Source: an uncultured Chloroflexales bacterium
GTDB lineage: Bacteria > Chloroflexota > Chloroflexia > Chloroflexales > Chloroflexaceae
Reading direction: 5' to 3'
Length of the DNA: 64,000 bases
NCBI GenBank assembly: GCA_937918935.1
Contig: CAKZSI010000011.1
Location: forward strand, 62,001-126,000
Numbering within the stretch: position 1 is the stretch's first letter; each line of letters begins with the position of its first letter. A program made the translations under genes and the position numbers. Shown here in pieces: positions 48,101 to 63,360 of this stretch. Under the pieces are notes generated by a model that did not search any database, was not told the origin of the DNA, and saw only the letters and a list, made by a program, of their open reading frames with translations.

Positions 48101-49132
48101 TCAGGCAGCAGCCCCGATCGCCAGTTCAACCAGGTTGGTTTCGCCCTGGGAGACAACCCCCGATCGGATGATCTGGTGCGCCATGGCCAGTGCTGTGATG
48201 CCATCCTCGCCACTGACAACCGGTGAGCGACCATCGCGCACCGCCTCTACAAAGGCGCGCAGTTCCTCGAAGAGCGGCTCGCGCCGCTGCACCTTGTGGC
48301 GAATCATGCGACCTTCGCTTACTCCCATCGTCGCCAGTGCCGGCCAGTGCTTGCCTACGCATTCGTCGTTCTCGTAGAAGGTCAAATCCTGGGTGAGATA
48401 GTTGGCGACGAACATCCCCCGCTCGCCGACAATGCTGAGTTCGCGGATCTTCGTAGGTGTGAGCCAGTTGATGTCGAGGATCCCGACGACGCCGTTTTCG
48501 AAGCGCAGCACCGCCGACAGCATGTCTTCGTGCGAGCGGTGCAGGTGACGGTGCAGTTCGACGTGCATCCGGCTGATCTTCGAGCCGAGGAGATAGTTCA
48601 GGATGTCCATTTCGTGCGTGGCCAGGTCGATGGCCACACCGACGTCCATGATCCGCGCCGGCAAGGGACCGACCCGGCGCGCGGTGATCTGAAAGATGTG
48701 GCCGAGTTCGTGCGCGTCGAGTTGCTGCTTGAGCGCGATGATCGCCGGATTGAAGCGCTCGATATGACCAACGGTAAGCAGTACGCCCTTGCGCTGGGCG
48801 GCTTCTACCAGCGCGTATCCGTCAATTACCGTCGCAGCGATCGGTTTCTCGATCAGCAGGGCCACGCCGTGATCGATCACGGCCCGCGCAACCTCGAAGT
48901 GGTGTTTCGTCGGTACAACAATGGATACCAGATCGAGACGCTCTTCTTCCAACATCTCCCGATAGTTTGTGTAGGCCCGGCAGCGGTACATGTCACCGAC
49001 CCGCCCTGCTGTGTTCGGATCGGTATCGCTCACGGCGGCGAGTTCGACCCCGTCCATGCTGGCATAGACGCGGGCATGGTTACGTCCCATGCTGCCGACG
49101 CCGATGACGCCGGCGCGAAGTGGTGCGCGCAT
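48101..49132 (-). CDS. Gfo/Idh/MocA-family sugar oxidoreductase
   Basis: This 343-residue NAD(P)-dependent dehydrogenase has VGVIGVGSMGRNHARVY-type dinucleotide binding at the start, the EKPIA motif, and the catalytic-region segment GVAIDLATHEMD. It resembles the nucleotide-sugar dehydrogenases (WbpB-like) that oxidise UDP-GlcNAc-derived sugars before transamination. A DegT aminotransferase lies 3 kb upstream in the same cluster, which would fit. ATG 49132 follows GGAGG at 5 nt. The downstream boundary is the bidirectional hairpin. Confidence 0.9.
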   Translation of the reverse strand: MRAPLRAGVIGVGSMGRNHARVYASMDGVELAAVSDTDPNTAGRVGDMYRCRAYTNYREMLEEERLDLVSIVVPTKHHFEVARAVIDHGVALLIEKPIAATVIDGYALVEAAQRKGVLLTVGHIERFNPAIIALKQQLDAHELGHIFQITARRVGPLPARIMDVGVAIDLATHEMDILNYLLGSKISRMHVELHRHLHRSHEDMLSAVLRFENGVVGILDINWLTPTKIRELSIVGERGMFVANYLTQDLTFYENDECVGKHWPALATMGVSEGRMIRHKVQRREPLFEELRAFVEAVRDGRSPVVSGEDGITALAMAHQIIRSGVVSQGETNLVELAIGAAA

Positions 49133-49203
49133 AACAACCTCCAGACACGATGCGATGGTTCCACGACCCGTCGGTACGGGCATCGTGCAAATGCCTTGCG
49201 GCC

Positions 49204-50676
49204 TCAGTAGGCTCCCTGACCCGATATGACCACGGCGATGGTGCGATAGATGATGTAGAGATCAAGCCAGATCGAGTAGTTACGGATGTAGTGCATATCC
49301 AGGCGCACGCGCTCTTCATAGCCGAGGTTGCTGCGCCCACTGATCTGCCACAGCCCGGTGAGACCGGGGCGCACGGTGACGAGGTTGTGGCGCCAGCGCC
49401 CAAAGTGCCGCAGTTCGTCGGTGGTGATCATCCGCGGGCCGACCAGGCTCATCTGGCCCAGGAGCACATTCACCAGTTGGGGCAGTTCATCGATGCTGGT
49501 GCGCCGCAGGAAGCGCCCGAGCCGGGTAATCCGGGGATCGTTTTGCAATTTGCCGGTCTCGTTCAGTTCTTTACGCAGTTCGGGCGTCAATAACTGCTCG
49601 CCATCCACCCGCATGGTGCGGAACTTGAAGGCGTCGAAGGTCTGGTTGCCCACACCCACGACCCGGCGGCGGTAAATGATCGGCCCCGCGCTGTCGAGAC
49701 GCACGAGCACGGCGACCAGTGCCAGCAGGGGGCTAAGGAGAATCAAGGCCGCCAGCGCCCCTCCCCGATCGATGATTGCCTTCCCGACCGCGTGCAGACC
49801 GGTAATGCGCGTCTTGTTGAGTCCCAGCAGGGGCACGGAACCCCGCTCGCGCACCTGCACCCCCACGGTCAGCAGTTCAAAGATCCCCGGCGCAAGCGAA
49901 ACGTCAAGGCGGCGCAGGGCGTCCATGGCGCCGTACACCGCAGGCAACCGCTCGCGCACCATCTCGGTGTCGGCGATGATCGCGCTATCCACACCTGTGT
50001 GCGTGACAATGGCATCAAAGGCTGTGACCGGGCCAAGCACCGGCACCCCCGGCAACACTTCCGTGCCTGGCGCCAGGTGATCGTCAACAAAGCCAATCAC
50101 GTGTATGCCGGCTTTGCTTGAGGCATTCAGTTGTTGGGCAACTGCCCGCCCTTCGGCATTGGCGCCCAGCACTACCGAACGCTGGATCAGGTAGCCACGT
50201 TCTCGAAGCGAATAGACCGCGCGCCGGACGGTGAAGCGCCATCCGATCGCCATTGCCGAGACCGAGGCCCAGGCCAGCAGCAGCCATCCGCGCGCGATCA
50301 CAAAGTCGGGCTGAAGGAACGTGAGCACAATAATCACCAGCAGGCCCACCGTACAGGCGTTGAAAATGCGGGCGTATTCGGTTGTGCCTCCAAAGATGAT
50401 CTGCGGGTTGTACAGACCATACAGGGCGAAGAGCGCCACCCAGGACGGGACGAGCAAGGCGATCAACGTTGCATAGAAGCCGATACGCGCATCCCCGGGG
50501 TAGAAGATCGGCCAGTCGGTGAAAAACCGAAGCATGTAAGCGAGGACGAATCCCCCCGCCACGCAAAGGGCATCGCCCAGCCCCATCCCCAGGAGCAACC
50601 ATCGCCATTCGTTGCGCCGAGCTTCTCTGGCTGGGAAGAGCTGTCCGGTTAGAATGTCGAGCAACTGGTTGTTCAT
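49204..50676 (-). CDS. Polyprenyl-phosphate sugar-1-phosphate transferase (WbaP/CpsE type)
   Basis: This 490-residue initiating enzyme for polysaccharide synthesis has about five N-terminal membrane helices, a CoA-binding-like domain (VVLGANAEGRAVAQQL), a further helix, and the C-terminal bacterial sugar transferase domain with FKFRTM, RRTSIDELPQLVNVL and RPGLTGLWQISGRS. It transfers a sugar-1-phosphate from a nucleotide sugar to undecaprenyl phosphate in the membrane. ATG 50676 follows GGGGAT. It marks this region as an exopolysaccharide or capsule locus. Confidence 0.95.
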   Translation of the reverse strand: MNNQLLDILTGQLFPAREARRNEWRWLLLGMGLGDALCVAGGFVLAYMLRFFTDWPIFYPGDARIGFYATLIALLVPSWVALFALYGLYNPQIIFGGTTEYARIFNACTVGLLVIIVLTFLQPDFVIARGWLLLAWASVSAMAIGWRFTVRRAVYSLRERGYLIQRSVVLGANAEGRAVAQQLNASSKAGIHVIGFVDDHLAPGTEVLPGVPVLGPVTAFDAIVTHTGVDSAIIADTEMVRERLPAVYGAMDALRRLDVSLAPGIFELLTVGVQVRERGSVPLLGLNKTRITGLHAVGKAIIDRGGALAALILLSPLLALVAVLVRLDSAGPIIYRRRVVGVGNQTFDAFKFRTMRVDGEQLLTPELRKELNETGKLQNDPRITRLGRFLRRTSIDELPQLVNVLLGQMSLVGPRMITTDELRHFGRWRHNLVTVRPGLTGLWQISGRSNLGYEERVRLDMHYIRNYSIWLDLYIIYRTIAVVISGQGAY

Positions 50677-50708
50677 AGCTATCCCCACCATTCATTTCAT
50701 CAAGGGTC

Positions 50709-52061
50709 TCACGCGCCGACAAGGGTTGTCGTGGCAGGTGTGTTGCGCCCGGCAACGTCAGCGATGACTTCTCCTGCAGTGCGGCGGGCAAAGGTGCACA
50801 CCGACTCGCCATTCGTCAATTGTGGATAGATCTGGCTGGTGTTGGCCAGGTAAAGCCCGGCGATCTCGCTGCGTATCGGCGGGATGAGGTCGGTCATTCC
50901 CACGGGATGCAACGGCTCGACATAACGCTCACGACCGATGCGCACTGCCACGATTTCCTCGTCGCGCAGGTCGGGAAACATCTGGCGCAGGTAGCCAGGG
51001 AAGGTTGCGCGGAGTTCGTCATCGGGCATAGTGGCGTAGCGGCTACCCGGCGCCACGTACTTGGGCAGGTAGACCAGGTGGTAGCCGCCCACGCAGGCCG
51101 GATCGATCAGGTTCGTTGTCTCGATCACGCCGGTGAAGGGAATACGCTCGTCGGTGATGTTCAGGGTGTAGTACGGTGTCAGGCTGCGGCGCAGCACCAG
51201 CAATACGCAGACGATGCCCAGGAAGCCCTCCAGGCGGCTCCAGCGCTCACTAACGGCCGCTGCCTCGGGCGGTAGCAGCCGGCGAGCGATAGGCGTCTGC
51301 GTGGTAATGATCACCTGGTCGCTCACATACTCGGCGCCGTTGATGCTCAGGCCCGCCACTCGTCCATCAGCGACACGCACCTGGTCAACCGTAGCGCCGG
51401 TGGTGATCATTCCCCCACGGGCGCGCACCGCTGTCGCCAGTGCGTCGATCAACTCCTGATACCCATTGGGCAGGTAACACATCAATTCCTGGCTTCCGCC
51501 TTTTGTCCGCGTATCAGTGGTGCGTACCAGCCGTGACCAGATGTAGGTCGCGGGCACCTGCGAGAAGTCGCCGTCGAACTTGGCCCGCAACAGCGGCTCC
51601 CAGATGTGGCGGGTCGTTTTCTCACCGCTCAGTTGCCGCAGCCACTCCGCGACCGGGATCTGCTCCAGGGCGCGCCAGTCTTTGATCTGTCGGCAGGCCA
51701 GGATGGTGTACGCCAGCCGCATCCGGTCGATCATGTTCAGAGGCGGGAAGCGCAGGAACTCGAGGGGCGTTGTCATGGGATAGCAGCGCCCGTCGTGGTA
51801 GAAGCCCATTCTGGTTGAGACCATGCGCAGGCGGCTTCGCAGGCCCAGTTCGTCCATGAGGCTCATCAGGGTCTGATCGCTGCTCAGGATGGCGTGGTAG
51901 TAGCGATCACAACTCATGCCCCCCAGTTCGTCGAAGGTGGTGCGTCCCATCAGACCGCCCAGGCTGGAAGCGCGTTCCCAGACCCTGACCGATTTGCCCC
52001 ATTTCAAGAACTCGTGAGCCAGTGTAAGTCCTAGAATGCCACCGCCAATGATGTCAATCAT
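50709..52061 (-). CDS. FAD-dependent oxidoreductase, amine-oxidase fold
   Basis: This 450-residue flavoprotein has the dinucleotide-binding IIGGGILGLTLAHEFLKWG at the start and a C-terminal FAD site (GLYLANTSQIYPQ). It belongs to the protoporphyrinogen-oxidase/UDP-galactopyranose-mutase-like group found in glycan clusters. The substrate is unknown. AGGA is 8 nt before the ATG at 52061. It follows the aminotransferase in the operon after about 200 bp. Confidence 0.88.
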   Translation of the reverse strand: MIDIIGGGILGLTLAHEFLKWGKSVRVWERASSLGGLMGRTTFDELGGMSCDRYYHAILSSDQTLMSLMDELGLRSRLRMVSTRMGFYHDGRCYPMTTPLEFLRFPPLNMIDRMRLAYTILACRQIKDWRALEQIPVAEWLRQLSGEKTTRHIWEPLLRAKFDGDFSQVPATYIWSRLVRTTDTRTKGGSQELMCYLPNGYQELIDALATAVRARGGMITTGATVDQVRVADGRVAGLSINGAEYVSDQVIITTQTPIARRLLPPEAAAVSERWSRLEGFLGIVCVLLVLRRSLTPYYTLNITDERIPFTGVIETTNLIDPACVGGYHLVYLPKYVAPGSRYATMPDDELRATFPGYLRQMFPDLRDEEIVAVRIGRERYVEPLHPVGMTDLIPPIRSEIAGLYLANTSQIYPQLTNGESVCTFARRTAGEVIADVAGRNTPATTTLVGA

Positions 52062-52172
52062 TAGTTGTTTCCTGTACCTATTTCTGATCCTGACCAGACA
52101 CCCTGCGACTTCGCTGCCCATCTGAAAAGGGTTCTTGCTCAGTACTGCGACGCGACTTCGGCTCAGTGGGGG

Positions 52173-52260: not shown

Positions 52261-53361
52261 CTACCGGCTCAGCACCTCGCTGGTCTCCAGCGACAGCGCA
52301 TTCACCGCTTCACTGATGTGGGCCAGTTCCTCGTTGTTCAGGCCAGGGTGGACCGGCAGTGCCAGCACCTGGCTGCTGAGCCGTTCGGTAACCGGCAGCG
52401 ACTGGTCGTAGCCCAGCGCGCGGTACATCGGCTGGTGCGGAATGGGCAACGGGTAGAACACCGCCGTATCCACGCCTGCGGCGCGTAGCTGGCGCATCGC
52501 TTCGTCACGATCGCCCAGGATGCGCACGGTGTACTGGTGGTAGACGTGGCGCACGCCGGGCCGGGCGAACGGTTTGCGCACCTGGGGGTGCCTGATCGTC
52601 TGGTCGAAGAAGGCGGCATTGGCGATCCGGCGCTCGGTAAAGCGCTCGAGCTTGGCAAGCTGGGCATTGCCGATCGCCGCCTGGAGGTCGGTCATCCGAA
52701 AGTTGTAACCCAGGAAATCGTGGTAGTACCGCACCCGGCTGCCGTGGCTCCGCAAGAGCCGCAGCCGGTCGGCAATCTGCGGATCGTTGGTCGTGATCAT
52801 CCCGCCTTCGCCCGACATGATGTTCTTCGTGGCGTAGAGCGAAAAACAGCCGGTGCCGAAGCTGCCCACCGGGCGCCCCTGATCCTGGGCCCCGATCGCC
52901 TGCGCGGCATCCTCGATAATCACCAGCCCGTGTCGCTCGGCGATGGCGCACAGGGCGTCCATCGCCGCCGGCTGGCCGTAGAGGTGGACGGGCATAATTG
53001 CCCGCGTCGCCGGCGTGATTGCCGCCTCCACCTGTTCGGGGTCCAGATTGAACGTTTGTTCATCGATGTCCACGAAGACCGGACGGGCGCCGGCCATCAG
53101 GATACTGTTGCCGGTGGCGATGAAGCTGAACGGTGTGGTGATCACTTCATCGCCAGGTCCAATATCGTGGGCCCGCAGGGCCAGAAAGAGGGCTGACGTG
53201 CCATTGCTTACAGCAATGGCGTGCGCCACACCACAGACTGCTGCGAAGGCCGCTTCGAGCCGTGCGACTTCAGGACCCTGCGCCAGCATGCCCGAACGCA
53301 GCACAGCAAGGACGGCTTCCTCCTCCTCGGGGCCGATCTGAGGACGGGCGACGGAGATCAT
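52261..53361 (-). CDS. DegT/DnrJ/EryC1-family sugar aminotransferase
   Basis: This 366-residue PLP enzyme has SNGTSALFLAL, EDAAQAIGA, and SLYATKNIMSGEGGM with the cofactor lysine in TKN. It transaminates a keto-nucleotide sugar in the cytoplasm. Substrates for the family include UDP-4-keto and 3-keto sugars; the Gfo/Idh enzyme in this locus could supply the latter. Its start overlaps the SIS gene's stop (TAATG). The ribosome-binding site GGAGGAGG lies inside the end of that gene. Confidence 0.93.
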   Translation of the reverse strand: MISVARPQIGPEEEEAVLAVLRSGMLAQGPEVARLEAAFAAVCGVAHAIAVSNGTSALFLALRAHDIGPGDEVITTPFSFIATGNSILMAGARPVFVDIDEQTFNLDPEQVEAAITPATRAIMPVHLYGQPAAMDALCAIAERHGLVIIEDAAQAIGAQDQGRPVGSFGTGCFSLYATKNIMSGEGGMITTNDPQIADRLRLLRSHGSRVRYYHDFLGYNFRMTDLQAAIGNAQLAKLERFTERRIANAAFFDQTIRHPQVRKPFARPGVRHVYHQYTVRILGDRDEAMRQLRAAGVDTAVFYPLPIPHQPMYRALGYDQSLPVTERLSSQVLALPVHPGLNNEELAHISEAVNALSLETSEVLSR

Positions 53362-53999
53362 TACCGGCCTCCTCCTACTGTTCGCGTAGCCAGGGCGTAG
53401 TACGGTTCAGGTTTTACCTCGCTCACCTCCAGGAGGCTCTCTTCAATGCGCAGCCCCATCGTGACCGCCAGGGAGTGACAGATGGCGCTGTGCACATCTT
53501 CCACTGCCGGCATGTGGTAGGTTGCGCTGTGTAAGCTGATCTGAGCGAGACGGGCCAGCTTGCCGCCGTCGAAGCCCGTGAGACCGACGGTGACTGCGCC
53601 CTGGGCATTGGCCCACCTGACGGCCTCCAGGACGTTTGGCGAGTTGCCGCTCCCCGAGATGGCGAACAGCAGGTCACCGGGGCGGTAATGGGTCATCAAC
53701 TGCTCAACGAAGATGTCGGCATAGCCCTGATCGTTGGAAAAGGCGGTCATCACCGGGACGTTGTCGGTGAGAGCCAGCGCCCGCACGCGACGCGCACCGG
53801 GCTTGATCGTCCATTTGGTTAAATCGCAGGCAAAGTGGGAGGCCGTGGCGGCACTGCCCCCGTTGCCGCACACAATAATCGTGCCGTCGCGTTCGTAGGT
53901 GTGCCAGAGTGCATCGGCAATCGCCTGGAGAGGCTCATGCGGCAGTTGTTGCAGGCTCTGCGATACCAGGTCGAGATAACGGTTGAGCGGGGTAATCAT
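53361..53999 (-). CDS. SIS-domain phosphosugar isomerase, GmhA-like
   Basis: This 212-residue protein has CGNGGSAATASHFACDLTKW and FAISGSGNSPNVLEAVRWA, which match GmhA (sedoheptulose-7-phosphate isomerase) and related SIS proteins. The AxHxxxE-type C-terminal helix is VEDVHSAICHSL. It may make a heptose precursor, but the rest of the heptose pathway is not seen. It is coupled to the aminotransferase gene. Confidence 0.9.
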   Translation of the reverse strand: MITPLNRYLDLVSQSLQQLPHEPLQAIADALWHTYERDGTIIVCGNGGSAATASHFACDLTKWTIKPGARRVRALALTDNVPVMTAFSNDQGYADIFVEQLMTHYRPGDLLFAISGSGNSPNVLEAVRWANAQGAVTVGLTGFDGGKLARLAQISLHSATYHMPAVEDVHSAICHSLAVTMGLRIEESLLEVSEVKPEPYYALATRTVGGGR

Positions 54000-54137: not shown

Positions 54138-54503
54138 CTACGATCTGGCCACCAGGATCATGCCGACGCAGATGACGGCGACCCCGGCCGCTCGCAGGGG
54201 ATTGACACTCTCGCGCAGAATGAGCCAGCCGATCAGGAAGAGGAGCACGTGGTTCAGGCTTACAAATGGATAGGCAACGCTCAGGTCAATCCGTGAAAGG
54301 GTGATTAACCAGAAGAAGGTGCCGAAACCGTAGATGAGCAATCCTCCAATAACGTATGGCGAGCGCACGATCTGCCAGATGATCCCCGGTACTGTTTCAG
54401 CGCTCAGGCCCAGCGGACCCATCTGATTCATCCCGTGTTTCAACATCGTTTGACCGACAATTCCCATGACGGTCGCGATCAAGATCAGCATCCATGTGCT
54501 CAT
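54138..54503 (-). CDS. SMR/EamA-type small membrane transporter
   Basis: This 121-residue protein has four membrane helices. The pattern resembles the small multidrug resistance/EamA superfamily: VMGIVGQTMLKHGMNQMG at the start and LIGWLILRESVNPLRAAGVAVICVGMIL at the end. ArnE/ArnF-type members flip lipid-linked sugars. The ATG at 54503 was chosen because GGAGGG lies 7 nt upstream. The longer open frame would overlap the upstream GT2 gene. It follows a GT2 enzyme and lies in the cluster with two ArnT-like proteins. Confidence 0.85.
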   Translation of the reverse strand: MSTWMLILIATVMGIVGQTMLKHGMNQMGPLGLSAETVPGIIWQIVRSPYVIGGLLIYGFGTFFWLITLSRIDLSVAYPFVSLNHVLLFLIGWLILRESVNPLRAAGVAVICVGMILVARS

Positions 54504-54625
54504 CAACAACCCTCCGATTCGCCGTGCCGTTGCCTTGTCTGGGGCTGAGACGCGCACGGGGGCGGTCACTTCGTCGATATGCTGCATTCCCTGGCTCTCC
54601 TTCAGGCGGCTGCGAGCGCGATTAC

Positions 54626-55381
54626 TCACTCGGGGCGCGGCGCTGTGTTCCAACCCTGTCCACCAGTAGGGTGCCGCCCAATCAGGCCGGCCATGTAGCG
54701 CAGGTGGGTGCGGGTGATGCGCAGCACTTTCGCCTTGGATTGCCCGTAGCGGCGAACGCGCAGGGTTGTCGGGTACTCCGCGATGCGGTAACCGGCCAGC
54801 CGGGCTTCAACCAGGAGTTCGGTGACCATCAGAAAACCATCGGCGTGGGTGGCGATCCGCTCGACCACCTCGCGGCGGCAAGCCCGGAACAGCGCGGTGT
54901 ATGTGTGAATGTTCCAGTCAACGAGCAGGCGGTAGCAGAGCGAAGCGCTCTTGCTGATCGCCACCCGATACGCCGGCACGTTCTCGATACCGCCTCCGGG
55001 ATGGTACGGCGAGGCGGTGACGATATCGACATCGGGCGTCAGCCGGTCGAGCAGCGCCGGAATTTCAGCAAAGGGGTACGTCCCGTCACTGTCACAGGTG
55101 ACAATCACCGTGCCCCGGCTGTGCGCGAAGCCCGTGCGCAGGGCCGCCCCGAGGCCGCGGTTGCGGTCGTGGGTGACAATGCGCGCCTCGGGCACATCAC
55201 GGAAGGCACTGGCGAGCAGTTCCCCGGTGTTGTCGCGGCTGCCATCATCAACCAGAATGAGTTCGACGCTACCGCGCTGGCGCAATTCAGGGAGCACCTG
55301 CCCGATCCGATTGCGCATCGTCGGGATGCCTTCGGCCTCGTTGTAGCAGGGAATAACAATAGATAGGTCGAGTGTTTGCAT
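54626..55381 (-). CDS. GT2-family glycosyltransferase, polyprenyl-phosphate sugar synthase-like
   Basis: This 251-residue GT-A enzyme has SIVIPCYNEAEGI, LVDDGSRDNTGELL, and TCDSDGTYPF. The order and the short length match dolichol/polyprenyl-phosphate mannose synthase-like GT2 enzymes (DPM1, ArnC-like) without a C-terminal membrane part. It likely makes a polyprenyl-phosphate sugar. GGAG lies 11 nt before the ATG at 55381. Confidence 0.9.
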   Translation of the reverse strand: MQTLDLSIVIPCYNEAEGIPTMRNRIGQVLPELRQRGSVELILVDDGSRDNTGELLASAFRDVPEARIVTHDRNRGLGAALRTGFAHSRGTVIVTCDSDGTYPFAEIPALLDRLTPDVDIVTASPYHPGGGIENVPAYRVAISKSASLCYRLLVDWNIHTYTALFRACRREVVERIATHADGFLMVTELLVEARLAGYRIAEYPTTLRVRRYGQSKAKVLRITRTHLRYMAGLIGRHPTGGQGWNTAPRPE

Positions 55382-55732
55382 GGTCTGTTTTCTCCTCGCC
55401 TGGCTCTGGCATCCCCAGACGGCTCTGTGCTCCGCGAGAGGTGCTCTGCCCACTTACGGCCTTCAGTATGCCGGAAGCTTCTAACTTTTAACTAAATCGT
55501 GCCGATCGGGCATCTGACAGTTCGTTTAGACTTCGGTTCGCTGTGCGGCCTGTTGCGTGCCCGTTTGGGGCAGTCAGGAAGGGCGCAGCCCTCCCTGCCA
55601 CGTCCAACGGGAACGTGGGTGAACACGGGGAAACCGGGGGCTTCCCCACACCCTTACCGTGAGAGGGTTCAGGAGGGCGTAAGCTCTCCCAGAAGCCACC
55701 CTGAAGTGGGCGTTATGTGGCGCAAGCTACAG
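55382..55732. other. Gap with degenerate hairpin repeats
   Basis: No gene. Dyads: CAGGAAGGGC-GCA-GCCCTCCCTG at 55574-55596 (one mismatch), a GGGGAAACC-type palindrome near 55629-55652, and a GGAGGGC-loop-GCTCTCC hairpin near 55671-55697. Confidence 0.55.
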
Positions 55733-57022
55733 TTACAGTTCGGGAGCGCGGTACGGGGTCGCCTGTAGTGCGGCGTGGTAGGCGAGTTCAAGGGTTGCGG
55801 CGCTGGCGTTCCAGGTGTGGTGGCGCTCAATGTAGGCGCGGCCAGCCTGGCCCAGCCGTGCCCGCAAGCGCGCGTCCTCAAGCAGCGTGACAATCGCTTC
55901 AGCGAAGGCGGAGACGCTCCCGGCGGCCAGTAACTCAACCCCCGCCCGCGCCTGTAGCGCGACCGTGGCCTGGCGCGCAGCGACCACCGGGGTGGCGCAG
56001 GCCAGAGCTTCCAGCACTTTATTCTGAATGCCCACGCCGTAGGTGAGTGGCGCCACGGCGAGGGTGGCGCGCTGCAGGTAGCTACGCAACTCCGGGACGT
56101 AGCCAGTAATCTCGACCCGCGGATCGCGCCCCCAGGCCCGCAGGCGTGGCCCGGGGTTGGCCCCGGCAATGACTACGCGCGCGTCGGGGCGCCGTCGCCA
56201 GACCAGGGGCATGATCTCGCGCAGCAGGTGCAGGGCGGCAGCCTCGTTGGCGTGGTAACTCATTTTGCCGCTGAAGAGGATGGTGGCCGGTTCACGCGCT
56301 ATTTGCGGCGGCTGGAAGTAATCGCAGTCAACCCCGTTCGGCACGACCCGGATCGGCGCGCCAGGGGGCTGATTGAACTGTCCGCGCAGTGTCTCCAGCG
56401 CCCAGCGGTCCTCCGGCGAGGTGATCACCACCTGGGAGAAGGCTCGCCCATAAGCGGCCTCGTAGCGCCGGGTGCGGGCCAGGTCGAGCAGCGCCATGGC
56501 CCGCGTGCCCGGGGCGGGATTATGACGCAAGGCCCGCTCGAAGAGCAGGCTGATGCTGTCAACCGCGTCCAGCACCAGGGGCGGGGCGCTGGATAGGCCG
56601 GCCGCGGCGACGCGGGCGACCTCGGCGCCGCGCAGGTGTTCGATGTGCACGATGTCGAACCTGTCACTGACCATCGCCTCGCGCACCGCCCCCACCAGCG
56701 CCGGGCTGAGACAATGGGCCGCCTGGAGCGGCAGTGGGCGGGGAACGGCACGGAGGTACGCTTCCAGGATGGCCCGGCGCCCGTGAGGCACGGCCACGGT
56801 CGGGCACAGCCTGCGGAGAGTGTCGAGCGCCTGGACATCGTCGGCCCCGCTGGTGGGGCAAACCAGGGTGACCGCGTGGCCCCGGGCCACGAGTTGGCGC
56901 AGAAACTGGAAGGGACGCACGCGGATCGGTGAGGGTGCGTAGGGCGCGACGAAGAGGATCCGCAAGCGCGAACTTGCTCCATCGGCGCTGACCCGATCAG
57001 GTGAGGCAGATAGTGTGCTCAT
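55733..57022 (-). CDS. GT4-family glycosyltransferase
   Basis: This 429-residue GT-B enzyme starts RILFVAPYAPSPIRVRPFQFLRQL, and contains VVPNGVDCDYFQPP and GVGIQNKVLEALACATPVVA. The pattern resembles the TIGR03087/Stp1-like sugar transferases of exosortase/polysaccharide clusters. Its start overlaps the stop of the upstream glycosyltransferase gene by 4 nt. Confidence 0.92.
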   Translation of the reverse strand: MSTLSASPDRVSADGASSRLRILFVAPYAPSPIRVRPFQFLRQLVARGHAVTLVCPTSGADDVQALDTLRRLCPTVAVPHGRRAILEAYLRAVPRPLPLQAAHCLSPALVGAVREAMVSDRFDIVHIEHLRGAEVARVAAAGLSSAPPLVLDAVDSISLLFERALRHNPAPGTRAMALLDLARTRRYEAAYGRAFSQVVITSPEDRWALETLRGQFNQPPGAPIRVVPNGVDCDYFQPPQIAREPATILFSGKMSYHANEAAALHLLREIMPLVWRRRPDARVVIAGANPGPRLRAWGRDPRVEITGYVPELRSYLQRATLAVAPLTYGVGIQNKVLEALACATPVVAARQATVALQARAGVELLAAGSVSAFAEAIVTLLEDARLRARLGQAGRAYIERHHTWNASAATLELAYHAALQATPYRAPEL

Positions 57023-58266
57023 CGGTGCACCGGAAACGCGGCGGCCCCCCGCACCTCTGCGCGGGCCAGGGCCGCGGCATAGGCCGCTTCCACGCGCGGG
57101 TTGACCACGCGCCAGTCGTAGCGTTCCTCGGCCAGGCGGCGCCCGGTGGCAGCCAGACGCTGCCCCAGGCCCGGGTCGCGCAGGATGCGCACCAGGGCCG
57201 CCGCGAAGTCGGCGGGGGTGTCGCCGACCAGCAGGTGTTTGCCCGGCGTAAGGTCAATCCCCTCATAGCCGATGGTGGTGGAGACGATCGGCAGTCCGCG
57301 GGCCAGGGCTTCGAGGATCTTGACCCGCATGCCGCCCCCGGCCCGCACCGGCACGATCAGGGCGGCGGTCTGCTCCAGGTATGGTCGGGGGTCCTCAACG
57401 TAGCCGGTCACGGCGATGCTCGAGTCGTGCTCGCTCAACTGGCGCACCGTCGCCGGCGGTCGCGCGCCAACAACCGCGAAGTTTACCTCCGGCACTTCGC
57501 GCTTGACCAGCGGATACACCTCGTGGGCGAACCACAGCACCCCGTCAACGTTTGGCGGCCAGAACATTGTGGCCATGCTGAGGATAGTGCGTGGCGCTGC
57601 AACCCGCTGCACCGGCGCTTCGCCGTGCGCGTCCACGGCGATGGGAATGATCGCCGTAGACGGCAGGCTGGCGCCGGCCTCGGCGGCAGCCAGTTCGAGG
57701 AAGCGCAGATCCGGCTCGCTGACCGCCAGCAGGGCATCGAAGCGGGCGCAGATACGGGCCTCGTAGCGTCGCAACCGCCGCGCTTCGAGTTCGAGGAACA
57801 GTCGCTTCGGCAACGGGCCGCCGTGACGGGCCATGCGGGCGACAATCGTCCAGACCGCATTATGCTCGTCCAGCACCCGCGCGCCAGGCAGGTCAGCCGC
57901 GAAGCGGGCCATGTTGAGTTGATCGGCGTGGATGATATCGAACGTCTCGCGGCGGACCAGGTCGCGCAGCAGGGCATCGAGTTGAGGCGAGGCGTCACGA
58001 CGCATGATGAACGACTCGCCGGTCAGCATACTGCTCAACAGATGCCGTGCATCACGCCAGCGCGAGCGCCGGAAGGGCACGGTGTAGACGGCCTTGCACA
58101 GCCCCCGCAGGCTCTCGGCATGAGCCCGTTCTTGCTCGGAACGCACCAGCGAGACGAGGGTCACGTCGTGATGCCGGCCGAGGTACTGGAGCAGGTTGTA
58201 GGTCTTCACCTTGGGACCGCTGTCGGGCGGGTAGGGCGCCACCAGGGTCAACATCAGAATGCGCAT
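57019..58266 (-). CDS. GT4-family glycosyltransferase
   Basis: This 415-residue GT-B enzyme begins MRILMLTLVAPYPPDSGPK and has DEHNAVWTI, ATMFWPPNVDGV and GGGMRVKILEALARGLPIVS. It is a distant paralogue of the next gene downstream. The ATG at 58266 marks the conserved N-terminus; upstream codons are out of family. It may extend the glycan assembled by this locus. Confidence 0.92.
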   Translation of the reverse strand: MRILMLTLVAPYPPDSGPKVKTYNLLQYLGRHHDVTLVSLVRSEQERAHAESLRGLCKAVYTVPFRRSRWRDARHLLSSMLTGESFIMRRDASPQLDALLRDLVRRETFDIIHADQLNMARFAADLPGARVLDEHNAVWTIVARMARHGGPLPKRLFLELEARRLRRYEARICARFDALLAVSEPDLRFLELAAAEAGASLPSTAIIPIAVDAHGEAPVQRVAAPRTILSMATMFWPPNVDGVLWFAHEVYPLVKREVPEVNFAVVGARPPATVRQLSEHDSSIAVTGYVEDPRPYLEQTAALIVPVRAGGGMRVKILEALARGLPIVSTTIGYEGIDLTPGKHLLVGDTPADFAAALVRILRDPGLGQRLAATGRRLAEERYDWRVVNPRVEAAYAAALARAEVRGAAAFPVHR

Positions 58267-58391
58267 GGCAGACTCACGTGTTGCGTCGGTTTTGATAGAT
58301 TTCTTCCTCCGGCTGGGAGGGTGTAGGGGGGCGAGGCCCTCCACGAAGCAGCGTGTACGGAAAGCCGCTCCTCCACATCCGCCGGTTGCCG

Positions 58392-59891
58392 TCAAATACC
58401 ATCCTCGTTTGGCAGGGCGGTGTTGACCCCGACAGTTGCCGAAGGCCGCGATCGCCGCTGGTTCGCCGGGATCACTATCAACGCGGCCAGGGTCAGGGTT
58501 GCCAGCAGCAGCGGGATCAGGCTCATCGCGCCGGTAAGGCCGAGGGCCATGCCAAGATTGCGCGCAATATCTCCCGCGGCCCAGGCGGGGAACACGTAAC
58601 CGGTCCAGGTATTACGGATCGTGTCGCTGGGAAAGAGTTGTTGTGCGACGCTTTCAACCCAGACCAGCGTAACTGAACCGATGACCAGCGCTATCACTGC
58701 CGCGCGTGCCACCGATTGCGCCCAGAGCCGGGCGGCGAGCCAGGCGGCGCTCAGGGCCAGGAAGGGGATGATTGGCACGATGTAGCGCGGGCCAGCGGCG
58801 AAGCCGCCCCACCACATCGCCGATGATCCGTAGAAGAGGATCAGGCTCAGTGGCGCCAGGAACAGCAGCCACCACTCGGCGCGTCGCGCGCCGCTACGCC
58901 ACCAGACGATCGCCGCCGGCAGCGCGAGCAGCAGCCACGGCGCGCGCACAAACAGCCCACGAAAGGTTCCGAAGGTCAGGCCCCAGAGAGCCTCGGCCCG
59001 GGGACCGGTGATGCTCATGAACCCGGTGTGGTGCTGCTCCTGCCAGAGGGCCGAGTGGGCGTAGCCAATGGGCAGGGGCGTGCCGAAGGCGACCAGGTCA
59101 TACACAATCAGGAGCGCGAGCGGAAGGGCGCCGCCGAGCGCCAGCGGGCCGATCCAGCGCCAGCCGCGCCGCGCCAGGGCGTAGAGGCCGATCAGCGCGG
59201 CCGGCAGGACGACCGGATACTCGCTGATGACCGCCCAGCCCAGCAGCAGCCCGCAGAGCAGGCCGCGGGCGTAGGCGGGCCGGCCCACCTCATCGTCGCG
59301 CGGCCAGGCCACGAAGAAGGCCCCGAAGAGCAGTGTGGCCGCAACCTGGTGGCTGTAGAAATTGCCGGCGTAGGGTGCGGCGCTGGTGCCCAGGCCGTAG
59401 GCCAGGGCGCCCGGAGCTGCCAGAGACGGAGCCACGCCCAGGCGCAAGAGCGCCAGGTAGAATGTTACCCCTAGAGCCGCCGTGGCACTGGCAACGACTA
59501 CCAGGGTCAATGCGTACTGCACCAGAGCAAAGCGAACCTTGTCGGCGCGCAGGCCGCTGCCATCCTCGCGCAGCGTGGACTGAAAGGCCGTTCCACTGCC
59601 GATCACTTCCAGACGCTCACGTACCGGTGGGATACTCAGCGCGGGGCCGAGGGCCATGTACACAGGCATCGCCAGGAACGAAAGCCCCGGGGGCTTATCG
59701 GTATAGGCGCGCCCGTTGTAGAGCGCGTAGTCGCCGGTATTGGCGACATAGCGGTCGATGCTGACCGTGCCATCGTCAACCATGGCCAGCACCAGGTTCA
59801 GCCGCGAGTTCTGGTTCCAGTCCGACCAGCGCGGCAGCACATAGGCGTAGCAGGTGAGGAGCAGGATGAAAATGAGAAGTGAGCGCCGCAT
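58392..59891 (-). CDS. Multi-pass membrane protein, GT39/PMT-like
   Basis: This 499-residue protein has at least ten hydrophobic segments. The first loop contains NGRAYTDKPPGLSFLAMPVY, typical of ArnT/PMT-type glycosyltransferases of Chloroflexi and Actinobacteria, with DKPPG as the conserved acidic motif. These enzymes move a sugar from polyprenyl phosphate to an acceptor outside the membrane. The ATG at 59891 follows CAGGAG. It is adjacent to a second similar gene. Confidence 0.85.
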   Translation of the reverse strand: MRRSLLIFILLLTCYAYVLPRWSDWNQNSRLNLVLAMVDDGTVSIDRYVANTGDYALYNGRAYTDKPPGLSFLAMPVYMALGPALSIPPVRERLEVIGSGTAFQSTLREDGSGLRADKVRFALVQYALTLVVVASATAALGVTFYLALLRLGVAPSLAAPGALAYGLGTSAAPYAGNFYSHQVAATLLFGAFFVAWPRDDEVGRPAYARGLLCGLLLGWAVISEYPVVLPAALIGLYALARRGWRWIGPLALGGALPLALLIVYDLVAFGTPLPIGYAHSALWQEQHHTGFMSITGPRAEALWGLTFGTFRGLFVRAPWLLLALPAAIVWWRSGARRAEWWLLFLAPLSLILFYGSSAMWWGGFAAGPRYIVPIIPFLALSAAWLAARLWAQSVARAAVIALVIGSVTLVWVESVAQQLFPSDTIRNTWTGYVFPAWAAGDIARNLGMALGLTGAMSLIPLLLATLTLAALIVIPANQRRSRPSATVGVNTALPNEDGI

Positions 59892-59907
59892 TGCTCCTGC
59901 CTCCGTT

Positions 59908-61440
59908 TCACGGCGCGCTGCGCCGCAGCAGCGCATACGGCTCAGCAGTGAAGATGACCTGGTAGTCTCGCTTCAGCACGTCGTCCGGGTAGATCCTGGT
60001 GTAGACGCTGAACGGGCCGAGCAATACGTAGGGTGGACGGGCTTCCAGCCCATCGTACTGGACGGGCGGGCCGCCGAGCCAGGTGCGGCGCACGGCCGGA
60101 TCGAGCAGTTCTGTCGGTACGTAGTGGTAGTTGTGGTCGGTGAGCACGCCCATCTCCGGCTCCCAGGTCTCGATGAGTGCGCCAACGGGCACATTGCGAT
60201 CCAGATACGCGGCCATCTCGTGGGCGGCGTAGCGGGGGCTCAGCACGACCCGCGTGGTCAGGGCCAGTGGCGCCAGAATGACCAGCGCCAGATAGCCCGC
60301 GCCGAGCCAGGCCAGGGCGGCGCGCTGGCGGTTTCGCAGAGCCTGGAAGAGATCGTGGGCCAGCAGGGCCACGGGGAGAGACCCGAGGATCACGGCGGGG
60401 AATGCGTAGCGCGGCCAGCCCAGCGAAATCATGAACCAGGCGATCCAGAGCACCGCCATCAGGGTTGGGGCCAGGTGCGCCAGGGCCCACGGGCTGCGCG
60501 CGCGGGCGCGCCAGAGGCCATAGACTAGACCGGGGAGGAGCAAACCGCCGTAGACCTGGATCAGGTAGCGCGCGGCCCGCAGACTCGCTTCTAAGTCAAA
60601 CACGAAGATCGCGCCGCCGGCAGCCTGGCGCGTCTTGGCAAGGTTCGCCGCGAAACCGTCAGGACCAAAAAAGGTGAGCATGACCACGGTCCAGATCCCG
60701 AAGCAAGCTACAGCGATGACCGGGGGGGCCAGGCGCACCCACCAGTTGCCCGCCCGGTAGTAGAGCCAGTCGAGCAGGGCCAGCAGCGCCAGCGATGGCA
60801 GAACGATCAGCACAAACTGGTTCTTGGTCACCAGAGCCAGGCCAAAGGCCAGCCCGGCCAGCAGGCTGGAACGCCGCGCCGTTGCTGGCTTCAGCATGGC
60901 CGCGCTGTACCCGAGCAGGCCGAGCAAGAGAAAAGCCATGCCCGGCGCCTCGCCAAGCACCTGACGTCCGTACTCCATCAGCCCGTCAAAACGTAGTGTC
61001 CGGGAAGCCAGCGCCAGCAGCAACGCCAGCACGGCCACCTGCCAGCCATAGAGCCGGCGCGCCAGGAAGTAGAGCGCGACGAGCGCGAGGGCCATATAGG
61101 CCACAATGACCAGGCGCGCCTGGAGCAGGCCTACCCCGCCGAGCTTGAACGCGGCGGCCACGGGCAGCATTACCGTCGGGCCGACGCCGATTGTCGGCCC
61201 GAAGTAGCGAAAGCCCTCGCTGCTGATGTCAGCGTACACCCCGTAGCGCACGAGCGTCCTGGGCACGTGCAGGTGCGAACCCTCATCGAACCAGGTCGGC
61301 GGCGCGTAGGGCAGGTTGATCAGTGCCAGGAGCGCAACCAGAACAGCGAGGGCCAGGGCGATGGTTCGTTCCCAGCTTCGCCGCGCGGCGGCTGATTGAT
61401 GTGCGAGAGGCGCGTGCCCGACTGAGAGTTGTTCTGACAT
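59908..61440 (-). CDS. Multi-pass membrane glycosyltransferase, ArnT/PMT-like
   Basis: This 510-residue protein has about eleven membrane helices. PPTWFDEGSHLHVPRTL in the first extracytoplasmic loop contains the Asp-Glu pair of GT39/ArnT enzymes. A soluble C-terminal tail (about 430-510) is typical. It probably uses a polyprenyl-phosphate sugar donor. It lies 16 bp before the preceding membrane protein gene, in the same operon. The acceptor is unknown. Confidence 0.88.
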   Translation of the reverse strand: MSEQLSVGHAPLAHQSAAARRSWERTIALALAVLVALLALINLPYAPPTWFDEGSHLHVPRTLVRYGVYADISSEGFRYFGPTIGVGPTVMLPVAAAFKLGGVGLLQARLVIVAYMALALVALYFLARRLYGWQVAVLALLLALASRTLRFDGLMEYGRQVLGEAPGMAFLLLGLLGYSAAMLKPATARRSSLLAGLAFGLALVTKNQFVLIVLPSLALLALLDWLYYRAGNWWVRLAPPVIAVACFGIWTVVMLTFFGPDGFAANLAKTRQAAGGAIFVFDLEASLRAARYLIQVYGGLLLPGLVYGLWRARARSPWALAHLAPTLMAVLWIAWFMISLGWPRYAFPAVILGSLPVALLAHDLFQALRNRQRAALAWLGAGYLALVILAPLALTTRVVLSPRYAAHEMAAYLDRNVPVGALIETWEPEMGVLTDHNYHYVPTELLDPAVRRTWLGGPPVQYDGLEARPPYVLLGPFSVYTRIYPDDVLKRDYQVIFTAEPYALLRRSAP

Positions 61441-61520: not shown

Positions 61521-63296
61521 TCAGTCGCCCGAACCGGCCAGGCGCTGCGTTCCTTTGCCCTGCAGGCTGCCACCCATCCACTTAAGATGGTTGACGCCGA
61601 TGGTCCAGAGCTGTCCAAGGGTGTCGGGATTGGTCGCGCCTTTGAGGAAGGTCTTGATCGGCCCGGGGCGCAACGACCACTCGCGGGCGGCGCGCCTGGC
61701 CCAGTACTCCAGATCTTTCGAACTGAGGTGCGGGTAGTTCAGTACCGTGTGGGAGTACATATCGTAGTCCTCCCACTGGTTCATCTGGATCCAGCCGTTC
61801 TCGACCGCCTCGTAGTAGAAGGGCGTGCCCGGGTAGGGGGTGGCGATATGGAACAGCGCAATGTCCACCGGGATGCGCTTGGAAAGGGCAATGGTCTGCT
61901 GGATAGTTTCGACCGTCTCGCCGGGGAGGCCGATGATAAAGTAGCCCCAGTTCATGATCCCGGCGCGGTGGCTGGCGGCAATCGTCTCTTCAATGCGCTT
62001 GACGGTGGTGCCCTTGCGCGCGCGCTTGAGGACCGTCTCGCTGCCGCTTTCCAGGCCCCAGGCGATCATGAAGCAGCCCGCCCGCCGCATCAGTTGCAGC
62101 TCGGCCTCGTCCACGAAGTCGACCCGGCTATTGCAGCTCCAGCGTAACTGCAAACCTTCTTTGATGATTGTGTTGCAGAGGTCGTAGACGAACTCCTTCT
62201 TGACCGTGAACAGGTCGGCCTCGAAGTGAATATGATGCATGCCCATTTCCTTGAGCATGATCATCTCCTGGAGCACGTGCTCGGGGCTGCGGTGGCGCAC
62301 GCTCGACTGATAGGTGACGTGCTTGATGCAGTAGCGACAGCCAGCCGGGCACCCGCGGCTGGTGAGCACGAAGGTGTAGGGACCGCCGACAATCGGCACC
62401 TTGTACTTGCGCCAGGGCAGGTGATCGTGGAGCGGGATGGGCAGGCTGTCGAGGTTCTCGATAAAGGGCCGGTCAGGGTTAATGCGCACCTCGCCGTGCT
62501 CATCGCGGTAGGCGATGCCGAGGGTCTCGCGCAGCGCCCGGGCAATCGTCTGGGGATAGACCCCCAGGAAGCGCCCGCGGGTGGTCAGGTAGGAAGCATC
62601 GGGGAAGGGCAGCTTGCGCCAGGGCGCGGTCAGGTCGGGATTGCCAACCGGCACCGTCTCGGTCGCCTTCTCCAGTTCCACCTGGCGATCGATCGTCCTG
62701 ATCACATCCACGATGGTCAATTCAGGCTCGCCACGCACGACGACATCGAGCGTCGGGTACGACTCGAGGGTCTCGCGACTCATCGGCGTGACGTGGGTGC
62801 CGATGGCCATGGTGATGGTGCCGACGGCCTTGCCGACGAAGGTGGTGCGCATATCGTTCGTCAATGTGGGCGCCGTGGCATGGATGATCATGTAGCGCGG
62901 CTTTTTCTCCCACATATACTTCTCGAATGACTTCCAGTCCATCATCAGGCCGATCGCATCAACTACCTCGACACTGTAGCCGGCCTCTTTGACCACGGCG
63001 CCGATCTGGGCCAGAGCGGTCTGCGGCCAGATGATCCCGTCGCGGGTACGCCGCCCGACGCGGGCGATGTCGCGCAAAAACAGGTCGCCGTCAGGCGAGG
63101 GCGGGTTCAGCACCAGCACATCAAGGCGTTTCGGGCGTTCGCGTGGCATCTCAACGAAGCGGATCTCGCCGGCCCGCTCATCGACCCTGGCCGGGGCCAC
63201 CAGCTTGATGCCGCTGGTCTTGTCGCCGGGAGCGACGCGCTTCTCAGCGCCATTGTCAGTAGACGTGGGGGTAGCGTCGTGGACGTGCTCACTCAT
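61521..63296 (-). CDS. B12-binding domain radical SAM protein
   Basis: This 591-residue enzyme has an N-terminal cobalamin-binding-like domain (LVLNPPSPDGDLFLRDIARVG, then TLTNDMRTT and VVVRGEPELTIVDVI) and a radical SAM core with the cluster motif C-PAG-C-RY-C near residue 325. ELQLMRRAGCFMIAWGLESGSE and YFIIGLPGETVETI are typical of the BchE/HpnP-like class. It could methylate or cyclise a lipid or sugar using B12. The locus gives no more precise clue. The ATG at 63296 follows GAGGAG by about 10 nt. Confidence 0.9.
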   Translation of the reverse strand: MSEHVHDATPTSTDNGAEKRVAPGDKTSGIKLVAPARVDERAGEIRFVEMPRERPKRLDVLVLNPPSPDGDLFLRDIARVGRRTRDGIIWPQTALAQIGAVVKEAGYSVEVVDAIGLMMDWKSFEKYMWEKKPRYMIIHATAPTLTNDMRTTFVGKAVGTITMAIGTHVTPMSRETLESYPTLDVVVRGEPELTIVDVIRTIDRQVELEKATETVPVGNPDLTAPWRKLPFPDASYLTTRGRFLGVYPQTIARALRETLGIAYRDEHGEVRINPDRPFIENLDSLPIPLHDHLPWRKYKVPIVGGPYTFVLTSRGCPAGCRYCIKHVTYQSSVRHRSPEHVLQEMIMLKEMGMHHIHFEADLFTVKKEFVYDLCNTIIKEGLQLRWSCNSRVDFVDEAELQLMRRAGCFMIAWGLESGSETVLKRARKGTTVKRIEETIAASHRAGIMNWGYFIIGLPGETVETIQQTIALSKRIPVDIALFHIATPYPGTPFYYEAVENGWIQMNQWEDYDMYSHTVLNYPHLSSKDLEYWARRAAREWSLRPGPIKTFLKGATNPDTLGQLWTIGVNHLKWMGGSLQGKGTQRLAGSGD

Positions 63297-63360
63297 CTGC
63301 AAGTTCTCCTCGTTGCGCGTGTCGGGCGCTATCACCGTCTCGATTGTCGTCTGGTATAGC

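Follow-up and report, generated by a model that had tools for sequence, protein, structure and literature searches.

Gene content and co-inheritance suggest a three-component sugar-decoration system with a flavoenzyme partner in a Chloroflexota surface-glycan cluster

The closest described relatives of the locus considered here are the Arn pathway of enterobacteria (ArnC, ArnD, ArnE/ArnF and ArnT) and the three-component systems, which according to the excerpted text of PMC7389260 are also known to decorate polymers other than lipopolysaccharide (LPS), namely teichoic acids, in Gram-positive bacteria. Lipid-type SMR proteins, which have lost the central glutamate and retain the tyrosine switch, have been described mainly from Proteobacteria, where they occur in fewer than 10% of species (excerpted text of PMC9574504). 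Here, we analyzed a stretch of 64,000 nucleotides from an uncultured Chloroflexales bacterium (GenBank assembly GCA_937918935.1, contig CAKZSI010000011.1, positions 62,001 to 126,000; G000:C11:62001-126000 in our numbering), hereafter the window, which holds genes for a GT2 enzyme, an SMR-like protein, a GT-C membrane enzyme and a flavoenzyme. We consider it likely, with a probability of roughly 0.7, that these genes form a three-component extracytoplasmic sugar-decoration system within a surface-glycan cluster, with the flavoenzyme as an additional member. This proposal is based on gene content, gene order, the predicted fold of the GT-C enzyme, the absence of the residues typical of drug-type SMR proteins, and co-inheritance. 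Sequence supports each of the make, flip and transfer steps; co-inheritance adds to the case for make and transfer, and the predicted fold to that for transfer. The proteins on which the argument turns are:

54626–55381, minus strand: GT2, 251 residues, likely start ATG 55381; putative soluble polyprenyl-phosphate sugar synthase of the DPM1/ArnC/GtrB type (make)
54138–54503, minus strand: SMR-like protein, 121 residues, start ATG 54503 with longer starts possible up to 54653; lipid-type, four-helix candidate flippase (flip)
59908–61440, minus strand: GTC2, predicted ArnT/PMT-type GT-C membrane glycosyltransferase (transfer)
58392–59936, minus strand: GTC1, usually adjoining GTC2; large membrane protein and putative LA_3751/LA_3752-type glycosyltransferase
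50709–52121, minus strand: flavoenzyme (AO), predicted flavin adenine dinucleotide-dependent oxidoreductase of the PRK07233 family

The system is best supported by co-inheritance. The same 400 Chloroflexota genomes were searched with GT2, GTC2, the flavoenzyme and the SMR-like protein, and presence was taken as E up to 1e-40 for GT2, E up to 1e-30 for GTC2, at least 41% identity for the flavoenzyme and at least 45% identity for SMR; the identity cuts, including those of the locus counts below (45% for GT2 and 30% for GTC2), were set after seeing the tables. GT2 is present in 34 genomes and GTC2 in 35, and 32 have both. The flavoenzyme is found in 33 genomes, all of which carry GT2, and SMR in 28, all of which carry GT2, GTC2 and the flavoenzyme. 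The flavoenzyme is the strictest partner of GT2, tracking it more strictly than SMR does. Flavoenzyme matches of any kind occur in 108 of the 400 genomes, and looser relatives (29–39% identity) are common in genomes without GT2, so that the link to GT2 belongs to the closer relatives. Similarly, SMR matches at E 1e-5 extend to 51 genomes and include weaker relatives with other neighbours. In the 32 genomes with both genes, GT2 and GTC2 lie on the same contig 4.1 to 20.3 kb apart in 20, far apart (0.49 and 3.9 Mb) in two, and on different contigs in ten; the link persists in the genome with the largest separation (G166, 3.9 Mb in contig coordinates). In the family of the window (f1), 17 of 23 genomes have both GT2 and GTC2 and the other six have neither.

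The association was also approached from an independent start, by scanning a flavoenzyme alignment over genome contigs. Of 124 pattern matches, 100 encode a relative. The 80 best of these make up the 79 loci analyzed, which are mostly from Chloroflexota, with two from Acidobacteria, one from a genome labelled Gracilibacteria and one from an unspecified bacterium. GT2 was found in 55 of the loci and SMR in 46, with both in 41 and SMR alone in five. Where both are present, the SMR core begins at most 140 bases from the end of GT2 in 31 of 41 loci and 1.2–1.3 kb from it in eight. A GTC2-type protein (at least 30% identity) is encoded in the fetched DNA of 39 loci, at most two genes after the flavoenzyme in 17. 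Synthase, flippase candidate and GT-C enzyme are all present in the window and in the fetched DNA of 20 of the 79 loci.

The GT2 enzyme contains a PF00535 domain (E 1.9e-28). A profile built from ten sequences, compared with the sequences in the PDB, ranked DPM synthase (5mlz, 2.3e-36) ahead of ArnC (9hwj, 1.8e-24) and sll0501 (2e-23), the last of which we take to be GtrB-like, and both aspartates of the D-x-D motif (D97 and D99) are invariant in all ten sequences. GT2 is nearest to the DPM1/ArnC/GtrB synthases and is predicted to transfer a single sugar to polyprenyl phosphate, in line with the DPM1/ArnC-like enzyme recognized in the initial annotation, which covered positions 54138–61440. 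It misses the NCBIfam equivalog cut-off for ArnC (78.7 of 529 bits). No hydrophobic segment is predicted in the GT2 of the window, which must contact the membrane in some other way.

The SMR-like gene is the direct neighbour of GT2 in the window. Its product has four hydrophobic segments, as first annotated, and at 121 residues falls within the size range of the four-helix proteins ArnE and ArnF (about 110–130 residues). The match to the SMR family PF00893 (26.6 bits) is just above the cut-off of 23.7 and partial, covering residues 104–161 of a longer, 171-residue frame; in a stricter PF00893 search of the genome (E 1e-6), the protein was not among the matches. Its best NCBIfam matches are ArnF (46.9 bits, 3.4e-12) and ArnE (38.1 bits, 1.4e-9), the only drug-type SMR among the matches listed is EbrB (19.5 bits, 1.2e-3), and no GtrA match was listed in Pfam at E 0.01. 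In an alignment of 48 proteins, all 15 drug, guanidinium and polyamine SMR proteins (11 of them from Chloroflexota) carry the central glutamate, which none of the 33 others has; the latter comprise ArnE/ArnF (8) and lipid-type proteins from Chloroflexota (25). The tyrosine switch is kept in all 48. The window protein has glycine at the position of EmrE E14, tyrosine at Y60 and valine at the position of the binding-site tryptophan.

Phylogenetic analysis against ArnE/ArnF was the check proposed in the initial annotation, and grouping with drug exporters was named there as a refuting result. The protein was placed outside the drug exporters: the 15 drug, guanidinium and polyamine proteins split from the other 33, including the window protein, with support of 100/99. 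This tree held 25 of 39 lipid-type sequences from Chloroflexota, hand-picked for spread, and 11 of 25 PF00893 loci, for which the open reading frame (ORF) was picked by its BLAST match to EmrE or Gdx, the other 14 not being entered. When six mostly long-branched rows were removed, a 13 versus 29 split was recovered with support of 100/100, the long ArnF and drug branches still meeting. As judged by the trees and the loss of the central glutamate, we rejected a drug-type exporter identity; the protein plausibly works like ArnE/ArnF. These results also bear on whether the genes are mere neighbours in an ordinary exopolysaccharide cluster, with the SMR-like protein a stray drug or metabolite exporter. 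The general glycan genes of the cluster and the score above the general PF00893 cut-off would fit such a view, but in addition to the trees and the missing glutamate, GT2, the flavoenzyme and GTC2 are co-inherited even when their genes lie far apart, and we regard it as very improbable.

In the window protein and in most of its relatives, the charges of the SMR core nearly cancel out (mean balance −0.56, n = 39, with helix limits set by eye and an uncertain start codon), which would weakly fit a dual-topology homodimer. At one f1 locus (L047:5873-7669), GT2 is flanked by two SMR genes with charge balances of −1 and −5, a pair that might form a heterodimer like ArnE/ArnF. A second lipid-type SMR gene lies elsewhere in the genome of the window (L054:9089-9550; G000:C82:12684-13022); it is 31% identical, overlaps a methyltransferase gene, and second copies like it are listed in many genomes of the family. 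Finally, a cassette in another Chloroflexota genome (L068:7070-11640) combines GT2, a methyltransferase, a lipid-type SMR protein and a YfhO-type membrane protein, and looks like a second three-component system in which SMR replaces GtcA. Because this cassette pairs GT2 and SMR with YfhO, the transferase of a known three-component system (excerpted text of PMC7389260), it favours a flippase role for SMR.

We also considered whether GT2 and GTC2 might form a lipid-linked sugar system in which the SMR-like protein merely anchors the soluble GT2 and another protein flips the product. In eukaryotes, DPM2 and DPM3 anchor DPM1 to the membrane, and archaeal and bacterial DPM/ArnC/GtrB enzymes usually carry membrane helices. 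The lack of a hydrophobic segment in the window GT2, the close spacing of the two genes (the 31 of 41 loci noted above) and the six GT2 genomes without a close SMR relative are compatible with anchoring. However, the SMR-like protein keeps four hydrophobic segments and the tyrosine switch and lacks the drug-binding glutamate, as do ArnE and ArnF. Moreover, the GT2 enzymes of the 14 flavoenzyme loci without SMR are likewise devoid of hydrophobic segments, so that the anchor would be missing there too. Based on these observations, we think an anchoring role unlikely and favour that of a flippase.

For the transfer step, the only Pfam match of GTC2 is PMT_2 (29.7 bits, just above the cut-off of 26.1). 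A predicted model with a predicted local distance difference test (pLDDT) score of 90.9 was compared with known structures: Foldseek ranked ArnT first (5ezm and 5f15), and VIA-align superposed the model on ArnT (5f15) with a Z score of 28.1 and a root-mean-square deviation of 4.7 over 443 aligned residues. In the PDB sequence search, ArnT was the sole match to the GTC2 profile up to E 0.1, at a weak E of 0.0054. All 22 sequences share residues D52, E53, R159, E164 and K206. Judging from sequence and model together, GTC2 is an ArnT/PMT-type GT-C enzyme. It could act as a PMT-type protein glycosyltransferase in protein O-glycosylation and not as a glycan decorator, given that PMT_2 is its sole Pfam match, that oligosaccharyltransferase (8pn9) ties with ArnT at Z 28.1 and that Pmt1-Pmt2 is not far behind (Z 24.8). 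On the other hand, the one sequence match in the PDB and the first Foldseek rank both go to ArnT, and the initiating sugar transferase and GT4 enzymes of the cluster point to a glycan acceptor; we therefore judge protein O-glycosylation to be improbable and prefer glycan decoration.

The initial annotation listed two ArnT/PMT-like enzymes. GTC2 bears out this assignment by its PMT_2 match and ArnT-like fold, whereas GTC1 remains unconfirmed. GTC1 has nine hydrophobic segments and matches NCBIfam NF047440 (LA_3751/LA_3752, “putative glycosyltransferase”) at 44.5 bits, below the cut-off of 200. It occurs in 27 of 60 genomes of the order, and in 23 of the 24 genomes with both genes it lies within about 4 kb of GTC2 on one contig. 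The 4.6-Mb genome of the window contains 31 PMT_2 matches at E up to 0.001, several of them grouped, and as judged by these matches is endowed with a large stock of GT-C-type enzymes.

A number of observations weigh against a three-component system. First, the gene set is incomplete in places: an SMR relative reaching 45% identity is missing from six of the 34 genomes with GT2, GT2 occurs without GTC2 in two genomes and GTC2 without GT2 in three, and one of the six f1 genomes with neither (G347) carries GTC1. Counted by family, eight have GT2 and GTC2, one has GT2 only and two have GTC2 only. With close kin making up most of the 32 genomes, the raw Fisher P values (1e-36 to 1e-47), which ignore kinship, overstate independence and were not taken as probabilities. 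The genome searches scored the best few candidates each (up to 6, 3 and 4, by search), and distant copies may be missed. Second, among the 79 flavoenzyme loci, 14 have GT2 without SMR (14 of the 55 with GT2) and 19, several of which are on short contigs, have neither in the DNA retrieved. A replacement flippase, sought as a small ORF with at least three hydrophobic segments within 3 kb of GT2, was found in none of the 14 GT2-only loci; applied to the 41 known SMR genes, the filter picks out 37. Small ORFs with that many hydrophobic segments are present in four of 19 loci searched for a replacement flippase, and L159 adds another among the GT2-only loci, all of them in these loci more than 3 kb from GT2; that of L197 lies about 7 kb from it. 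Either another flippase serves the loci without SMR, or SMR has another role, for example the membrane anchoring of GT2. Third, the SMR-like protein just passes the general SMR threshold and falls far short of the curated cut-offs for ArnF (99) and ArnE (92); the solved structure nearest to its profile is EmrE, a weak match (4.5e-4) to the second half only; and neither tree groups it with ArnE/ArnF, the ArnF branches being long. Fourth, GTC1 has no Pfam match and no PDB sequence match, and its identity as a GT-C enzyme is unconfirmed. The make-flip-transfer scheme put forward in the initial annotation is partly supported, each step having backing at the sequence level, with the qualifications that one of the two proposed ArnT/PMT-like enzymes is unconfirmed and that six of 34 GT2 genomes lack a close SMR.

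The flavoenzyme, which lies outside the range of the initial annotation and was not mentioned there, matches PF01593 (2.1e-23) and, above its cut-off of 252, NF005560 (512.3 bits; PRK07233, a family named “hypothetical protein”). Its model (pLDDT 90.3) has the phytoene desaturase/amine oxidase fold, the nearest structure being plant phytoene desaturase (5mog, Z 33.8), followed by protoporphyrinogen oxidases (about 31) and by amine oxidases and UDP-galactopyranose mutases (about 28.6). By sequence, a plain UDP-galactopyranose mutase was rejected (TIGR00031, 14.9 of 303.75 bits); since a mutase (4dsg, Z 28.6, below 33.8) is among the fold matches, a mutase-like reaction is conceivable. Putative targets are a nucleotide sugar, a lipid-linked sugar or the isoprenoid chain. 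Tentatively, the flavoenzyme might alter the lipid-linked sugar or the polyprenyl carrier before flipping, which would extend the scheme to make, edit, flip and transfer, a possibility to which we assign a rather low likelihood. Its counterparts would then be ArnD, which deformylates in the Arn pathway, and the mycobacterial DprE1, and its product would be an oxidised or otherwise novel lipid-linked sugar destined, in several Chloroflexota classes, for an envelope polymer other than LPS. DprE1 is a flavoenzyme of another flavoprotein superfamily than that of the phytoene desaturase/amine oxidase fold.

The cluster is wider than positions 54138–61440. In addition to the proteins above, it encodes:

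61521–63335, minus strand: B12-binding radical S-adenosylmethionine (SAM) protein, HpnJ-like; PF04055 3.3e-24; HpnJ 236.8 bits, below the cut-off of 577.6; part of the conserved order
57019–58395, minus strand: GT4b, GT4-type glycosyltransferase; PF13692 7.7e-25
55733–57022, minus strand: GT4a, GT4-type glycosyltransferase; PF13692 3.5e-27
53361–53999, minus strand: SIS-domain sugar-phosphate isomerase, GmhA-like; PF13580 1.1e-20; gmhA 112.6 bits, below the cut-off of 209.45
52261–53361, minus strand: DegT sugar aminotransferase, PseC/ArnB-like; PF01041 3.8e-129; PseC 324 bits, below the cut-off of 423.5
49204–50691, minus strand: initiating polyprenyl-phosphate sugar-1-phosphate transferase (PGT); TIGR03025 398.8 bits, above the cut-off of 295.55
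48101–49183, minus strand: MocA-type dehydrogenase, UDP-GlcNAc 3-dehydrogenase-like; NF040723 333.1 bits, below the cut-off of 450

The two GT4 enzymes fall within the range of the initial annotation and are absent from it; the initiating sugar transferase that it assigned to the locus is real, as judged by the TIGR03025 score, and is encoded outside that range. From high to low coordinates, the order is small membrane protein, radical SAM protein, GTC2, GTC1, GT4, GT4, GT2, SMR, SIS, DegT, flavoenzyme, sugar transferase and MocA. The twelve genes from radical SAM to MocA keep this order in 11 of 14 neighbourhoods of the f1 family (L039–L052), and the gene order of the window is not due to chance. 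The 11 include L040, where the gene caller missed SMR because of an overlapping ORF and the gene is present at 97%; L048, L051 and L052 are partial (contig ends) or deviate in order, and L047 has the additional SMR gene. Gene calling was done with a simple script that lost some genes to overlapping ORFs, and a six-frame profile search was used for the SMR count instead.

Other groups share parts of the arrangement. The f3 family has the order GT2, 2-epimerase, SMR, flavoenzyme, sugar transferase and MocA, and in the three of its loci retrieved for these genes (L191, L192 and L194) GTC1 and GTC2 are adjacent to each other at another place. Thermoflexus-like genomes (L127, L128, L134 and L148) have GT2, SMR, flavoenzyme and sugar transferase, and some Anaerolineae (L133 and L144) have a hexapeptide protein, DegT, MocA, GT2, SMR, epimerase, flavoenzyme and GTC2. 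The radical SAM gene adjoins GTC2 in all 11 full-order f1 neighbourhoods, in one of them with a small ORF between, and also lies near GT2 in several Anaerolineae loci. Just upstream of GT2-SMR-flavoenzyme, four loci (L063:6003-8746, L128, L134 and L148, three of them Thermoflexus) encode a thiamine pyrophosphate (TPP) enzyme and a PylC-like protein, which could mean that the sugar bears an acyl group or one resembling an amino acid. Past the end of the window, on the same strand (L053:1-4210; G000:C11:126001-130210), lie another GT2, two hexapeptide proteins and a UDP-GlcNAc 2-epimerase. Beyond these come a protein with no match in Pfam and Laminin_G_3 proteins.

No sugar identity could be derived from MocA, DegT and SIS, all of which score below equivalog cut-offs. 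In the two relatives scanned, the UDP-GlcNAc 2-epimerase passes the WecB cut-off of 210.15 (326.2 and 311.2 bits), pointing to a sugar of the ManNAc type. Since families differ in their sugar enzymes, we propose no single sugar.

As to the acceptor, the genome of the window contains five LytR-CpsA-Psr matches; this family attaches glycopolymers to Gram-positive cell walls. Lipid A is an unlikely acceptor since no LpxC match was found in the genome, LpxC being the sole lipid A gene searched and the control matching four of 14 known genomes, including E. coli. A cryo-tomography paper (excerpted text of PMC7332563) reports a failure to detect LPS in C. aurantiacus and O. trichoides, both Chloroflexales, and states that key LPS genes were not found in the order. 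Both lines agree with the initial annotation that an LPS acceptor of the usual kind is absent; its further proposal that the acceptor would be new is conjectural, non-LPS polymers being known targets of three-component systems in Gram-positive bacteria (excerpted text of PMC7389260). A glycan built on polyprenyl diphosphate is probably the likeliest acceptor because the initiating transferase and the GT4 enzymes share the cluster.

We propose the following sequence of events: (i) MocA, DegT and the UDP-GlcNAc 2-epimerase just past the window would prepare an amino or acylated sugar; (ii) the soluble GT2 would load it on polyprenyl phosphate at the inner face of the membrane; (iii) the substrate of the flavoenzyme would be either the activated sugar or its lipid-linked form; (iv) the lipid-type SMR protein, probably as an antiparallel dimer, would move the lipid-linked sugar to the outer face; and (v) the ArnT-like GT-C enzyme would transfer the sugar at the cell surface, most likely to the glycan, begun on polyprenyl diphosphate, that the cluster's sugar transferase and GT4 enzymes make, a protein acceptor being less likely.

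The lipid-type residues are found here in SMR proteins of a phylum whose Chloroflexales reportedly have no LPS, and the genes for these proteins form part of a set that is both conserved and inherited together. The locus provides a way into the envelope glycans of filamentous phototrophs (Chloroflexus and Roseiflexus, for example), about which little is known, and a testable candidate for the flipping of a lipid-linked sugar different from Ara4N. The flavoenzyme, as a constant member of the set, offers a starting point for finding new reactions of such sugars. Among the open-licence papers listed in our searches, none describes this gene set in its title or the opening of its abstract.

Compared with known systems, the locus resembles the Arn pathway in its DPM-type GT2, its SMR-type protein without the central glutamate, its transferase with a predicted ArnT fold and its DegT aminotransferase. 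It differs from the Arn pathway in several respects: the NCBIfam matches listed for the ten locus proteins scanned include neither ArnA nor ArnD, its GT2 in the window is without hydrophobic segments, the window has a single SMR gene and not a pair, no lipid A acceptor is expected in a genome without an LpxC match, and the flavoenzyme is constant in the set. With GtrA-GtrB-GtrC and CsbB-GtcA-YfhO it would share the making, flipping and transfer of a polyprenyl-phosphate monosaccharide (excerpted text of PMC7389260), from which it differs in that the flippase candidate is SMR-like and the GT-C enzyme ArnT-like, not YfhO. The mycobacterial DprE1/DprE2-Rv3789-Emb pathway likewise has epimerase steps and a small membrane protein between polyprenyl-phosphate sugar synthesis and a GT-C enzyme, and the pentofuranose system of Citrobacter youngae O1/O2 (ORF12-ORF15) combines a GT-C enzyme, a four-helix transporter similar to ArnE and EmrE and a lipid-linked donor (both in the excerpted text of PMC11127046). 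They differ from the present set in that the Chloroflexota flavoenzyme, unlike DprE1, has the phytoene desaturase/amine oxidase fold, and in that the Citrobacter donor comes from a polyprenyl phosphoribose synthase and not from a GT2. The locus would be of a known three-component kind; what is unexpected is the flavoenzyme as its constant partner.

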